Of a stretch of DNA of 64,000 nt, positions 6,933-13,229 are shown piece after piece. A program made the position numbers and the translations under genes. Source of the stretch: Tepidicaulis marinus (GTDB lineage Bacteria; Pseudomonadota; Alphaproteobacteria; Parvibaculales; Parvibaculaceae). The notes beneath the pieces were generated by a model. The model was not told where the DNA came from, searched no databases, and worked only from the letters and a program-made list of their open reading frames with translations. Location: positions 186,001 to 250,000 of the forward strand of contig NZ_BBIO01000001.1 in the NCBI RefSeq assembly GCF_000739695.1. Direction: 5' to 3'. Numbering within the stretch: position 1 is the stretch's first letter; each line of letters opens with the position of its first letter.

Positions 6933-7376
6933 TCAAAAGGGCCGCACAATCACCATGATCACGATAAAAATCGTCAGGAGCGGCGGCACTTCATTGGCGA
7001 TGCGCAGGAATTTCGATGTATGCGGGCGCTCATCGGCGCCGTAAAGCCGGCACCATTTTACCAGCACGCCGTGATAGGCGGACATAGCAATAACGAGCGT
7101 CAGCTTCACATGGAACCAGCCTTCGGAAAGAAGCGAGGGAATGGTGAGAATGAGCAGGATGCCGAAGAGCCAGGTCGCTCCCATCGCCGGATTGACGATG
7201 CGCTTTAAAAGCAGCTCTTCCATACGCTTATAATTTTCCGAGAGCACCGATCCTGTTTCGGTTTCGGAATGATATACGTAAAGCCTTGGAAGATAATACA
7301 TTCCCGCCATCCAGAAGATAACGGAGATGATGTGAAACGCTTTGATCCAGAGATAAAAGGGCTGCAGAAATTCCAT
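6933..7376 (-). CDS. hemJ: Protoporphyrinogen IX oxidase HemJ
   Basis: A 147-residue inner-membrane protein that oxidises protoporphyrinogen IX to protoporphyrin IX in bacteria lacking HemG and HemY. It has about four hydrophobic segments. The family histidine is seen in WIKAFHIISVIFWMAGMYYLPRLYVYH, and the C-terminal part carries NEVPPLLTIFIVIMVIVRPF. The frame extends to 7502, but the MEFLQPFYLWIKAFH start at 7376 fits the usual 140-150 residue length. It lies between hemH and rho on the same strand, so ferrochelatase and its substrate-making enzyme are neighbours. Confidence 0.93.
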   Translation of the reverse strand: MEFLQPFYLWIKAFHIISVIFWMAGMYYLPRLYVYHSETETGSVLSENYKRMEELLLKRIVNPAMGATWLFGILLILTIPSLLSEGWFHVKLTLVIAMSAYHGVLVKWCRLYGADERPHTSKFLRIANEVPPLLTIFIVIMVIVRPF

Positions 7377-7438
7377 CGTTCCGGTTTCGACTCTTTTAAG
7401 TTTTGATCCCTGGAGCCCGCTGGAAGGCTTTTCTTCCG

Positions 7439-8494
7439 TCAGGAAATCCCGGCAATAGCCCGCTCGGCCGTACATACATGCCCCGGCGCATCTTCCGGGC
7501 AAAGCACGCCGGTATTGTTCAGGCTTTCAAGCACCAGCCGCGCCAGCCCGTCGATAAAACCCCGCTCGGTGCCCACCGCCGCAACCCGCACATAAGCCGG
7601 CACCCCGCTTTCACGCGCCAGTTTGCCATATTCGATATCGAGCTCCACCAGCGTTTCCGAATGTTCGGAGACAAAAGCGATGGGCACGACGACCAGCGCC
7701 TTGCCCTCGGCGCCCGCCCGCTCGATTTCCTTGTCCGTGGCCGGGCCGATCCATTCGAGCGGCCCCACCCGGCTTTGATAGCAGGTCTGCCAGTCGAGAC
7801 CCGGAATGGCCAGCTCCTTGACGATCGCCGCGCAGCTTTGCTCGACCTGGGCCTGATAAGGATCGCCGTCCTCGATGACTTTTTTCGGCAGGCCGTGGGC
7901 GGAAAAGAGCACGCGGGCTTTTTCCGGCCCGCCCGCTTCTTCGAGCGCCGGGCGGATCAGCCCGGCATAAGAAGAAATGAAACCGGGTTCGGTTGGGTAA
8001 CAGCAAACCACATGAACGGGCGCTTTCAGTCCGGCTTCCCCTGCCGCGCGCATCCAATCCTTGAACGAGGATTCGGTCGTTGTTGTGGAATAGTGCGGGT
8101 AAAGCGGCAAGAGAACGATTTCATCGGCGCCCCAGGCTTTCACCTGCGCCGCCGCTTCATCGGCAAAAGGATGCCAGTAGCGCATGGCAAGAAAGGTCTT
8201 TGCCTCGATTTTCCCCGCCGCCGCCTGGTCCGCCAGCACCTCTTCCAGCGCCCGGCCTTGCGCCTCAGTCAAAGGCACGAGCGGCGAGCCGCCGCCGAGC
8301 TCCGCATAAATCTCCCTGGCAATTGGCGCGCGGCGTTTTGAAATCAGCTTGGCGAGCAAAAAGCGGAACGGATTGGGAATGCGGATAATCGCCGGATCGT
8401 TGAAGAGATTGAACAGGAAGGGCTGCACCGCCTCGGGCTTGTCCGGCCCGCCCAAATTCATCAATACGATGGCAACTTTGCGCCGTCCGGTCAT
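7439..8494 (-). CDS. hemH: Ferrochelatase HemH
   Basis: A ~351-residue enzyme that inserts ferrous iron into protoporphyrin IX, the last step of haem synthesis. Family marks are VLMNLGGPDKPEAVQPFLFNLF at the N-terminus, the catalytic histidine in LFSAHGLPKK and the metal-site glutamate region SEHSETLVELD. Two starts are possible: a GTG at 8506 that overlaps the hemE stop (GTGA), and the ATG at 8494. I prefer 8494 because AGGTGA lies at a good distance before it; either way translation is probably coupled to hemE. Downstream is hemJ, 62 bp away. Confidence 0.95.
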   Translation of the reverse strand: MTGRRKVAIVLMNLGGPDKPEAVQPFLFNLFNDPAIIRIPNPFRFLLAKLISKRRAPIAREIYAELGGGSPLVPLTEAQGRALEEVLADQAAAGKIEAKTFLAMRYWHPFADEAAAQVKAWGADEIVLLPLYPHYSTTTTESSFKDWMRAAGEAGLKAPVHVVCCYPTEPGFISSYAGLIRPALEEAGGPEKARVLFSAHGLPKKVIEDGDPYQAQVEQSCAAIVKELAIPGLDWQTCYQSRVGPLEWIGPATDKEIERAGAEGKALVVVPIAFVSEHSETLVELDIEYGKLARESGVPAYVRVAAVGTERGFIDGLARLVLESLNNTGVLCPEDAPGHVCTAERAIAGIS

Positions 8495-8502
8495 GGGATT
8501 GC

Positions 8503-9540
8503 TCACCTGAAATTACGGATGAAGTCCAAAAGCTCAGCCACATGCTCAGGCGGGGTTTGCGGCACGATGCCATGGCCGAGATTGAAGATGAAAGGCCCAT
8601 CTCCCAGCGCCTCGAGAATACGCGCCGCCGCGGTTTTCATTTCCTCCCCGCCTGCCACCAGCAGCAGCGGATCGAGATTGCCCTGCACGGGCCCCAAAAC
8701 CTGCACATTGTCCCGCGCCCATTCAGGCGCGATGGCGGTATCGAGACTGACGGCGCTCACCCCCGTCGCCTTGAAATAGTCCGCATAAGCCGGCCCTGCC
8801 CCTTTCGGGAAAGCGATGACCGGGATATGGGGCGCTGCCTCTTTCAGCCGCGCGCGGATCTGGCGCACAGGCTCCACGCACCAGCGCTCGAAATGGGCCG
8901 GCGGCAAGGACCCTGCCCAAGTATCGAAAAGCTGAATGGCTTCCGCCCCTGCCTCGATCTGGGCGAGAAGATAATCGCCCGTCGCCTCGATGAGGAGATC
9001 GATCAGCACCTGAAATTCATCGGGCGCGCGGTAGGCCCAGAGCTTGGCCGCCGCTTGATCGGGCGAGCCGCGCCCGCCCACCATATAGGTCGCAACGGTC
9101 CAGGGCGCCCCGGCAAAGCCGATCAGCGCCGTCTCGCGGGGCAGTTCCTTGGAAAGCCGGCGCACCGTCTCAAAGACCGGAGAAAGATGATCGAGCAGCC
9201 CGTCCTTGCTTAACGCGGAGAGTTCCTGCGGACCCGTCACGGGTTTCAATACCGGGCCGATCCCCTCTTCAAAACGCACGTCCTGGCCGAGCGCGTCCGG
9301 GATCACGAGAATATCGGAAAAGAGGATCGAAGCGTCGAAGCCGTAGCGGCGGATCGGCTGCAGCGTGACCTCGACCGCGAAATCCGGCGTATAGCAAAGA
9401 TCGAGAAAGCTGCCCGCTTCTTTGCGCACTTGCCGGTACTCGGGCAGATAGCGCCCTGCCTGGCGCATCATCCAGATCGGGGGCACATCGAAAGACTGGC
9501 CCTCCAGGGCGGCGAGAAATTTCTTCTTGGGCTCGGTCAC
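8503..9540 (-). CDS. hemE: Uroporphyrinogen III decarboxylase HemE
   Basis: A 345-residue cytoplasmic enzyme that decarboxylates uroporphyrinogen III to coproporphyrinogen III. The N-terminus has the family signature PPIWMMRQAGRYLPEYR, with YTPDFAVEVTLQPIRRYGFDASILFSDILVIPDALG following, including the invariant aspartate. The start is a GTG at 9540; the ATG five bases upstream hits a stop at once. It begins the hemE-hemH-hemJ-rho string and borders the probable replication origin, just as hemE does in Caulobacter. Confidence 0.97.
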   Translation of the reverse strand: MTEPKKKFLAALEGQSFDVPPIWMMRQAGRYLPEYRQVRKEAGSFLDLCYTPDFAVEVTLQPIRRYGFDASILFSDILVIPDALGQDVRFEEGIGPVLKPVTGPQELSALSKDGLLDHLSPVFETVRRLSKELPRETALIGFAGAPWTVATYMVGGRGSPDQAAAKLWAYRAPDEFQVLIDLLIEATGDYLLAQIEAGAEAIQLFDTWAGSLPPAHFERWCVEPVRQIRARLKEAAPHIPVIAFPKGAGPAYADYFKATGVSAVSLDTAIAPEWARDNVQVLGPVQGNLDPLLLVAGGEEMKTAAARILEALGDGPFIFNLGHGIVPQTPPEHVAELLDFIRNFR

Positions 9541-9716
9541 GTCATTGCCTGTTTGTCGCGCCAGCCTAAGGGAAAGAGCTGGCCATCTTGTTTCCCGTCT
9601 TGCTTACATGCTCGCGTCTTGAATTGCGAGCTTGCAGGTTGCCGCAGGCACCTGCCTCTTATTGGCAGCGCCTTGGAAGGCTGCGTCCTTAAAGGCGCTT
9701 TTTGGAGGTCCCCGGT

Positions 9717-9725
9717 TTATCCACG
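9717..9725 (+). promoter_or_regulatory. DnaA-box-like nonamer TTATCCACG
   Basis: Eight of nine bases match TTATCCACA. It overlaps a GANTC site (GAGTC at 9725-9729). It is the nearest box to hemE in the probable origin. Confidence 0.6.
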
Positions 9726-9931
9726 AGTCCTCCTTCCATCTAAGAATCTATGAAAAGGATGTAGTGGGTAGTGGTTGCCTGTGGATGGTGAGGATCAAAT
9801 TTGGTCCGGATTCCGCTCACATCAAGCATGACGCTAAAATCTTCTCCGCCCTATGAGGCACGAATGTGCAAAAGCAAGCTTCCGTGAAAAAGCGCGCCGG
9901 ATTCCAACAGCTTGAATATAAGCGCCCAGGT

Positions 9932-9940
9932 TGTGGAAAA
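9932..9940 (-). promoter_or_regulatory. DnaA-box-like nonamer TTTTCCACA (minus strand)
   Basis: TGTGGAAAA on the plus strand; the minus-strand reading matches the DnaA consensus at eight of nine bases. Confidence 0.6.
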
Positions 9941-9985
9941 CGGGGATGGCCTGAATGAACCGGAGGCGGAATTTCATATCCGCAC

Positions 9986-10003
9986 TTATCCTCTTTATCC
10001 CCA
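9986..10003 (+). promoter_or_regulatory. Two abutting DnaA-box-like nonamers
   Basis: TTATCCTCT (9986-9994, 7/9) is followed directly by TTATCCCCA (9995-10003, 8/9). The pair is in tandem on the plus strand in the probable origin. Confidence 0.5.
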
Positions 10004-10106
10004 AGGGCACAGGCGCATCTGTTCAGAGAGGAACGAGTCTGTTCGCTGAAAAGATCTTACCGGGGGCAAAAATTTTGGCGCCTGTCCCTTCCCCGCCTTG
10101 CCCCCG

Positions 10107-10125
10107 TTACCCACAGTTTTCCACA
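10107..10125 (+). promoter_or_regulatory. Two closely spaced DnaA-box-like nonamers
   Basis: TTACCCACA (10107-10115) and TTTTCCACA (10117-10125), one base apart, each 8/9 to the consensus and both on the plus strand. This is the densest DnaA signal in the region. Confidence 0.65.
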
Positions 10126-10279
10126 GGCTGCCTGCCTATATGCGCAAGTTCGTCCTCTGTTTGGCGCAAACCCGGCGGGCGGGAAAAAACTGGCACCTCA
10201 CGGTCTCAATCAGTAGCTTCTCTCCCAATGATGTTTCCCGGCAAGGCACGCTGCCTTACCGGGCTTAAGGACTAGGTAC

Positions 10280-11101
10280 ATGGCCGGACGGCGCGTCTTT
10301 CATCTTCATCTTGTCTCCGATGCGACGGGGGAGACCTTGAACGCGGTCGCCCGGGCGGCCTGCGCGCAATATGAAGATGTGCGGGCGATCGAACATGTCT
10401 ATGCGCTGGTGCGCGGGCCCAAACAGCTCGAGCGGGCGTTGGGGGAAATCGAGGAAGCGCCGGGCATGGTCATGTTCACCATGGTGAATGATGATTTGCG
10501 CGCGAAACTCGAAAAGCGCTGCCTGGAACTTGAAGTGCCCTGCATCAGCGTGCTCGACCCGGCGATCAATGCGCTCGGCTCGTATCTCGGCCGCGAGATT
10601 TCGCACAAGCCCGGCGGCCAGCACATCATGGATCAGGAATATTTCGACCGGATCGCGGCGCTCAATTTCACCATGGCCCATGATGACGGCCAGAGCCCCG
10701 GCGATCTTGACGAGGCCGACGTCATTCTGGTGGGTGTCTCGCGTACCTCGAAAACACCGACCTGTATTTATCTCGCCAACCGCGGCATCAAGGCGGCGAA
10801 TATTCCCCTTGTTCCGGACATTCCCTTGCCGGCGGAATTGGAAACCGCGAAAAAACCGCTCATCATCGGGCTGGTTGCCAATCCGGAACGCCTCATTCAG
10901 ATCCGCCGCAACCGGCTCTTGTCGCTGAATGAAAAAACCGAAACCGATTATGTGGACCGCGCGGCGGTGGCCGCGGAAGTCGCCCATGCCCGCAAGCTCT
11001 ATAGCCGCAATGGCTGGCCGGTGATCGATGTCACCCGCCGCTCGATCGAGGAAACGGCGGCCGCCGTGCTCAATCTTTATACCCGCAAGGAGAATGCATG
11101 A
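10280..11101 (+). CDS. ppsR: PEP synthase / PPDK regulatory protein (DUF299, PpsR)
   Basis: A 273-residue bifunctional kinase/pyrophosphorylase of the DUF299 family, which controls phosphoenolpyruvate synthase or pyruvate phosphate dikinase by reversible phosphorylation. The N-terminus FHLHLVSDATGETLNAVARAA and the P-loop-like GVSRTSKTPTCIYLANRG are family marks. This is the gene called RP001 in work on alphaproteobacterial origins, and it flanks the probable oriC. It is followed by maf; their coding regions overlap by four bases (ATGA), suggesting coupled translation. Confidence 0.93.
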   Translation: MAGRRVFHLHLVSDATGETLNAVARAACAQYEDVRAIEHVYALVRGPKQLERALGEIEEAPGMVMFTMVNDDLRAKLEKRCLELEVPCISVLDPAINALGSYLGREISHKPGGQHIMDQEYFDRIAALNFTMAHDDGQSPGDLDEADVILVGVSRTSKTPTCIYLANRGIKAANIPLVPDIPLPAELETAKKPLIIGLVANPERLIQIRRNRLLSLNEKTETDYVDRAAVAAEVAHARKLYSRNGWPVIDVTRRSIEETAAAVLNLYTRKENA

Positions 11102-11697
11102 TGGGGGATCATCTGCCGCTCCTCCTGGCCTCTGCCAGCCAGGTGCGCGCCGATCTTTTGCACGGGGCGGGCCTGCCTTTCGATATTTGCGTCTCGCCCG
11201 TCGATGAGGAGGAAGCCAAACAGCGCCTTTCCAGCGAGCCCGATGCGCTGGCGATGGAGCTTGCGCGGCTGAAAGCCTGCGCGGTCTCCCTCGACACGCC
11301 CGCCACTCTTGTCATCGGCGCCGATCAGGTGCTTTCCTGCGAGGGGAAAAAATTCGACAAGCCCCGCGACATGAAAGAAGCGCGCAAGAACCTGTCTTTC
11401 TTTCGCGGCAAAACCCATACGCTGCATTCCGCCGTCACGCTGGCGCTCGATGGCGAGATCGTCTGGTCGCATGGGGACCGCGCGCATTTGACCATGCGCG
11501 ATTTCTCCGACGCCTTTCTCGATCATTATCTGCGCCAGGCGGGGGAGAAAATTCTCAAAAGCGTGGGCTGCTATCAGCTCGAAAGCGTGGGCGTGCAGCT
11601 CTTCGAGAAAATCGACGGGGTCTATTTCACGATCCTCGGCCTGCCGCTTTTGCCGCTCTTGGAAGAATTGCGCGCCAGAAAAGTGATCCTCGCATGA
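11098..11697 (+). CDS. maf: Maf family nucleotide pyrophosphatase
   Basis: A 199-residue Maf/HAM1-fold nucleotide pyrophosphatase thought to hydrolyse non-canonical or modified nucleoside triphosphates. The N-terminus [16 protein letters not shown] matches the family LILASxSxxR motif, and [18 protein letters not shown] carries the conserved active-site aspartate. AAGGAGA lies before the ATG, which overlaps the ppsR stop; the stop of maf in turn overlaps the start of aroE (ATGA). The three genes therefore form a tight operon. Confidence 0.93.
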
Positions 11698-12572
11698 GTG
11701 AGAAATCTTTAGGTACGCCTACAGCGCCCAATGCCAAGCGCCGGGTCTGCGTCATCGGCTGGCCGGTGGAGCATTCCCGCTCGCCGCTGATCCACAATCA
11801 TTGGATCGCAGAGCACGGCATCGAAAACGCGGTTTATGAAAAACTCGCCGTGCCGCCGGAAGAGGCCAAGGAAACGTTGCAGGGTCTCGATGCGCGCGGC
11901 TTTATCGGCGCGAATGTCACCGTCCCCCATAAAGAGACGGCCTTTACCGCCATTCCCCGCCACGACAAGATGGCCTCGCGCGTGCGCGCGGTGAACACGC
12001 TCGTCAAGACAGAGGAGGGATGGGAAGGGCGCAATACGGATGGCTACGGGTTCATCGCCAATCTGAAAGAAGGCGCGCCTTCCTGGCAGAAAAACAAGCC
12101 GGCCGTTGTCGTCGGCGCGGGCGGGGCCTCGCGCGCTATCATTGCCGCGCTTTGGGAAGAAGGCGTCAACGATATCCGCCTTATCAACCGCACGCGGCTG
12201 AAATCGGAAAAACTGGCAGGTGATCTCGGCGTCCCGCTTCTCGTGATAGATTGGGAAAACCGTAATCAGGCATTGCCGGGCGCCGGGCTTCTCGTCAACA
12301 CGACCTCGCTTGGCATGAAGGGAAGCGAGCCGCTCGATATCGATTTAAGCGGGCTGAGCAAAGAAGCGGTGGTCACGGACATCGTCTATACCCCGCTCAT
12401 CACGCCGCTGCTTGAAGCGGCGCGCGCCAGAGGCAATCCCATTGTCGACGGGCTCGGCATGCTGCTGCATCAGGCGGTGCCCGGTTTCGAAGCCTGGTTC
12501 GGCGTGCGCCCTGAGGTCACGCCCGCTCTGCGCAAGCTCATTCTGGACGATCTTGGACAAAAAGCAGACTGA
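11694..12572 (+). CDS. aroE: Shikimate dehydrogenase AroE
   Basis: A 292-residue NADP-dependent enzyme reducing 3-dehydroshikimate to shikimate in aromatic amino acid synthesis. The substrate-binding S-R-S ([11 protein letters not shown]), the catalytic lysine in NVTVPHKE and the aspartate in NTDGYGF are present, as is the NADP loop [11 protein letters not shown]. It has a short N-terminal extension of about 15 residues before [10 protein letters not shown]. It overlaps maf by four bases and is followed 15 bp later by coaE. Confidence 0.96.
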
Positions 12573-12587
12573 ACGAAGAAGAACGAT

Positions 12588-13229
12588 ATGAAAAACGACG
12601 TGCTCCTTATCGGCCTAACGGGCTCGATCGGAATGGGAAAATCGGAAACCGCCAAAATGTTCGCAAGGCTCGGCGTACCGGTCTATGACGCGGACGCCGC
12701 CGTGCATGAACTTTATGCGCCGGGGGGCGCGGCGGTCGCCCCGCTCGAGGAAGCTTTTCCCGGCACGGTGAAGGACGGCATGGTCGACCGGGAGGAGCTT
12801 TCCAAGCGCGTTCTCGGTAAACCCGATGAGCTGAAAAAACTCGAAGCCATCGTCCATCCGCTGGTGGGCGAAGCGCAGCGCGCTTTCCTGCAAAAAGCTA
12901 TGGCTGAGGATCAGCCCATGGTGCTGCTCGACATTCCGCTTTTGTTTGAAACGGGCGGGCGCGAGCGGGTCGATGTCATTGTCGTCGTCTCCGCCCCTTA
13001 CGACGTGCAGCACGAGCGCGTGCTTGCCCGGCCCGGCATGACAGCGGAAAAATTCGATGCGATCCATGCCAAACAGGTGCCGGATGCGGAAAAGCGGGCG
13101 GGCGCCGATTTCATCGTCGAAACCGACAAGGGCCTTGAGCACGCCTTCGAGCAGGTCAAAGAAATCGTGAATAAATTACAAGGCCGGCCCGGCAAGATTT
13201 TGCCCAAGATGCTGGCGCAAATGGGCTAG
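12588..13229 (+). CDS. coaE: Dephospho-CoA kinase CoaE
   Basis: A 213-residue P-loop kinase catalysing the last step of coenzyme A synthesis. The Walker [12 protein letters not shown] is at residues 8-18, followed by [12 protein letters not shown], the [11 protein letters not shown] motif and the lid region. Start and length are normal. It follows aroE closely and precedes dnaQ, the order maf-aroE-coaE-dnaQ being common beside alphaproteobacterial origins. The CoA pathway gene coaA also lies in this window, at 29899. Confidence 0.96.

Follow-up and report, generated by a model that had tools for sequence, protein, structure and literature searches.

A probable chromosomal replication origin between hemE and ppsR in a member of the Parvibaculum family

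The stretch of DNA analysed here, referred to as the window, spans 64,000 bases and corresponds to bases 186001–250000 of contig C46 (420,028 bases), which is part of a draft genome of 3.48 Mb in 46 contigs. Positions are those of the window unless the contig is named. The genome falls within the Parvibaculum family; among named records, the closest ppsR was found in the Rhodobiaceae MAG UBA4490 (99% identical), followed by Parvibaculum species. The locus is composed of two genes and the gap that separates them:

8503–9540, minus strand: hemE, uroporphyrinogen decarboxylase, left boundary of the gap (PF01208, 400 bits, E 9.5e-120)
9541–10279, no strand: candidate oriC region, 739-bp intergenic gap, marked by the skew switch and the proximity of parS
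10280–11101, plus strand: ppsR/DUF299 (COG1806, RP001-like) kinase-pyrophosphorylase, right boundary of the gap (PF03618, Kinase-PPPase/DUF299, 318 bits, E 4.9e-95)

The first-pass annotation had described 739 non-coding bases flanked by genes that point away from them, and this description holds, with hemE on the minus and ppsR on the plus strand and Pfam support for both. Open reading frames were called on the plus strand within the gap (9430–9753 and 9955–10275), but the gap is treated as non-coding because these frames are merely mechanical and the region diverges between genera, with a mean per-position identity of about 31% (background 0.315). A scan of positions 7000–13000 against Rfam yielded no RNA family above chance. 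The G + C content of the gap is 53.6%, compared to 62% for the window, so that its AT content is above average, and it includes an easily melted stretch. Of 44 loci of relatives, 43 retain the divergent hemE–ppsR pair. So do 77 of the 80 named loci from alphaproteobacteria, and two of the three exceptions there end at a contig edge. An origin in the hemE/DUF299 context has been published for Caulobacter and Rickettsia (PMC1914354), in agreement with the earlier statement that the origin of Caulobacter and other alphaproteobacteria is placed there.

DnaA boxes were counted with the consensus TTATCCACA at up to one and up to two mismatches and compared to 2000 dinucleotide shuffles. The following boxes are referred to below:

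9717–9725, plus strand: DnaA box TTATCCACG, 1 mismatch, shared with the sister species (L022)
9780–9788, minus strand: weak DnaA box CCATCCACA, 2 mismatches, adjoining the repeats; identity to other genera 0.76
9789–9797, minus strand: weak DnaA box TGATCCTCA, 2 mismatches, in tandem with the box at 9780–9788; identity to other genera 0.77
9932–9940, minus strand: DnaA box TTTTCCACA with one mismatch, found at the same position and in the same orientation in other genera
9995–10003, plus strand: DnaA box TTATCCCCA, 1 mismatch
10107–10115, plus strand: DnaA box TTACCCACA with one mismatch, first member of a tandem pair (identity to other genera 0.72)
10117–10125, plus strand: DnaA box TTTTCCACA with one mismatch, second member of that pair (identity to other genera 0.84)

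Five boxes with up to one mismatch were found in the gap (0.09 expected) and ten with up to two (1.4 expected), and neither count was reached in any of the 2000 shuffles. A perfect TTATCCACA box is absent from 9541–10279. Across the 420-kb contig, the gap is the sole cluster of at least three boxes with up to one mismatch, the runner-up windows of 739 bp holding two; the cluster of DnaA-like nonamers noted earlier is thus real and unique in the contig. The boxes stand out as conserved within the otherwise divergent gap, and the one at 10117–10125 ranks among its most conserved stretches. The spacing is also kept: measured from the reverse box at 9932, the tandem pair at 10107 and 10117 is located at 175 and 185 bp. 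A reverse box followed by a forward tandem pair at 174–175 bp and 184–185 bp was found across genera, in L021, L041, L044, L045, L047 and L062.

Two further elements are located at the hemE-side end of the gap:

9733–9765, no strand: least stable stretch of the gap in a nearest-neighbour stability profile, candidate DNA-unwinding element
9757–9778, no strand: conserved repeats GGATGTAGTGGGTAGTGGTTGC, DnaA-trio-like, likely unwinding repeats; recognised in an alignment of 23 origins; mean identity to other genera 0.66 (background 0.315)

Here, the weak box pair at 9780–9797, a short GC-rich spacer and the TAGTGG-type repeats at 9757–9778 form a block that is conserved family-wide, with TAGTGGATAGTGGATGCC and TAGTAGTAGTACCC as counterparts of the repeats in relatives. 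Box pair and repeats adjoin the least stable 31-mer of the gap, and together these elements are likely to constitute the unwinding site. The basal unwinding rule comprises a DnaA box, a spacer and DnaA-trios (PMC8287927). In the strict form used here (a box with up to two mismatches, a spacer of up to 16 and at least three consecutive NAN trios), the rule fails at the conserved repeats, which have a period of 7 instead of 3 bases, and for this reason we only infer an unwinding role of 9757–9778. Elsewhere in the gap, five matches to the rule were found, which is more than in shuffles (P 0.003), with no GAT trios among the matches listed. In a relative from genus g4 (L041), the conserved block takes the form of a textbook basal unwinding module, TTATCCACAGGGTACTACTACTA, from intergenic position 201 leftwards; it conforms to the strict rule and features three GAT trios, which were seen in none of 400 shuffles.

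Sites and genes of cell cycle regulation were compared as well:

9725–10039, no strand: five GANTC (CcrM-type) sites, starting at 9725, 9744, 9809, 9900 and 10035

The five GANTC sites claimed earlier are present. The contig mean is 0.64 per 739 bp and at least five sites occur in 0.5% of contig windows, but the number is not significant compared to shuffles of the gap's own AT-richer composition (about 2.9 expected, P 0.17). CtrA is encoded in the genome, scoring 425 bits against a curated cut-off of 350, and so are GcrA and a CcrM-like protein with a RAMA domain. The CtrA site TTAA-N7-TTAA was not found in the gap at up to one mismatch, and matches with two mismatches are at chance level (P 0.31). 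Control by CtrA sites as in Cori is therefore unsupported here, and CtrA probably does not act on this origin through its consensus site. The exact consensus is also missing from the origins of all family relatives scanned, despite the CtrA gene in this genome; a review notes that for most other alphaproteobacteria no CtrA sites of this type are seen at the origin (PMC4468827). The IHF consensus WATCARNNNNTTR yielded two matches with one mismatch in the gap (P 0.13).

Origins of Parvibaculum were observed to contain an inverted pair, GGTCATACCCG...CGGGTATGACC, inside the hemE–ppsR gap, with arms 75–76 bp apart. It occurs in 14 genomes, exactly once each and always in this gap (L023, L024, L025, L027, L029–L032, L034, L035, L037–L039 and L043; e.g. 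G011:C1:1388365–1388451). In L040, both arms are changed in concert, and the sequence between the arms is without covariation. The pair looks more like protein-binding sites than RNA, possibly sites of some origin regulator. The window's own genus lacks the motif. A hairpin of the Parvibaculum type in the gap studied here was rejected, given the missing motif and folding z-scores that differ between sister species (−1.2 and 0.5).

GC skew was computed on the 420-kb contig C46 alone, one piece of the 46-contig draft, and analysed with a two-level fit and block bootstrap. The skew changes sign along the contig, with a negative mean before the switch and a positive mean after it. This switch was best fitted at contig position 198 kb (95% range 184–217 kb), and the gap is located at 195.5–196.3 kb. 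The cumulative curve is nearly flat between 195 and 210 kb and reaches its minimum at 210,009, 14 kb to the right of the gap. In a closed relative (G011), a coarse skew sampled in 20 pieces of 20 kb each proved too noisy and patchy to place a switch at the ppsR locus, and the polarity of the KOPS-like motif GGGNAGGG was uninformative, with reverse sites outnumbering forward sites on both sides.

Exact parS sites were found just twice in the genome, at C46:183649 and C46:185738, which is 10–12 kb from the gap on the hemE side. They are located 2.35 kb and 0.26 kb to the left of the window start; one of them is inside rsmG, the other in the space between mnmG and mnmE. The neighbouring genes are mnmE, mnmG/gidA, rsmG/gidB, parA and parB, with Pfam support for MnmE, GidA, ParA and ParB. 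In 18 genomes, counting those with ppsR and parS on one contig and including the window's own, the distance between parS and ppsR ranges from 10.5 to 16.5 kb, again on the hemE side. In the genome of one relative (G012), exact parS sites occur as two equally spaced pairs, each on a contig of its own (C3:2089–4156 and C8:123340–125407), perhaps due to a duplicated region, a strain mixture or an assembly artefact.

Taken together, the sequence features indicate that the gap at 9541–10279 is very probably the chromosomal oriC and of the same kind as Cori of Caulobacter. The first-pass annotation had proposed an origin here, and the skew switch, the nearby parS sites, the box cluster and its conservation all argue for it. 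That annotation had named a skew minimum or a parS- or dnaA-linked box cluster elsewhere, with flat skew here, as evidence to the contrary. What was found instead is a skew switch here and exact parS sites close by, while the gene dnaA (C46:334201), 138 kb from the gap, lies in uniformly positive skew without a change, and the contig-wide scan showed no DnaA-box cluster at its locus. The dnaA locus was hence rejected as the origin.

These observations also bear on the reading that the boxes form a DnaA-regulated promoter or a DnaA-titration site for hemE and ppsR and that the origin is located elsewhere, e.g. at dnaA. Transcription is also under DnaA control in Caulobacter (PMC4468827), and since hemE and ppsR both start at the gap, promoters must be present in it. 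This reading is nevertheless highly improbable, as the skew changes sign at the hemE–ppsR locus, which also has the genome's only exact parS sites in its vicinity, the region around dnaA shows uniformly positive skew and no box cluster, and the arrangement of the boxes is kept across several genera. Even less probable is a gap that represents an ancestral origin, with initiation now taking place nearby inside the skew uncertainty (contig 184–217 kb). The breakpoint interval of about 33 kb and the displaced cumulative minimum leave space for such a shift, but no other window of the contig reaches three boxes with up to one mismatch, and the binding sites are still conserved in the own genus and in relatives.

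If the gap is the active origin, DnaA would bind the tandem pair at 10107–10125 and the weaker boxes in between, and would be guided from the weak pair at 9780–9797 onto the adjoining TAGTGG-type repeats at 9757–9778. It would then open the low-stability DNA at 9733–9765, where helicases would load and two forks would leave in opposite directions. Methylation of the GANTC sites by CcrM, together with GcrA, may time initiation. A more speculative and rather unlikely extension is that origins of this family unwind via a divergent module, consisting of a weak box pair and 7-base TAGTGGA repeats in place of regular trinucleotide trios, and that control by CtrA was replaced by another factor, which in the sister genus Parvibaculum would recognise GGTCATACCCG/CGGGTATGACC.

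With this origin call, the replication start and both replichores are fixed for the genome. The locus is also a clear case in which the hemE–ppsR position of the origin, the parS distance and the layout of the DnaA boxes persist in a lineage without CtrA sites of the Caulobacter type. The call is of use for annotation and for picking sites for origin plasmids, and changes no concept. As annotation it is useful but ordinary, because Caulobacter and many related bacteria share the origin position. A putative alphaproteobacterial hemE–ppsR oriC is of an already known kind, well supported and no surprise.

Compared to known systems, Cori of Caulobacter crescentus (hemE / CC0001-COG1806) has the same flanking genes as the gap described here, and the Caulobacter-type regulators CtrA, CcrM-like protein and GcrA are also encoded in this genome. 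The boxes differ from the G-box type, TGATCCACA, and the length of 739 bp compares to 531 bp in the Caulobacter MAG locus used for comparison. Cori has five CtrA sites (TTAA-N7-TTAA), whereas the gap has none at zero or one mismatch. Like the gap, Cori is characterised by clustered moderate or weak DnaA sites and not by perfect boxes (PMC1914354, PMC4468827). In Caulobacter, parS is located about 8 kb from Cori (PMC6399470), the corresponding distance here being 10–12 kb. The origin of Rickettsia prowazekii (hemE / RP001-COG1806) is flanked by the same pair (PMC1914354); CtrA and IHF sites have been reported for it, whereas in the gap CtrA matches are at chance level and neither of the two IHF-like matches reaches significance. 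While the basal unwinding system of Bacillus subtilis and others has 3-base trios and the repeats here, TAGTGGGTAGTGG, have a period of 7 without three consecutive NAN trios, both have two DnaA boxes in tandem and a short spacer rich in GC, and the GAT-rich repeats are oriented as expected.
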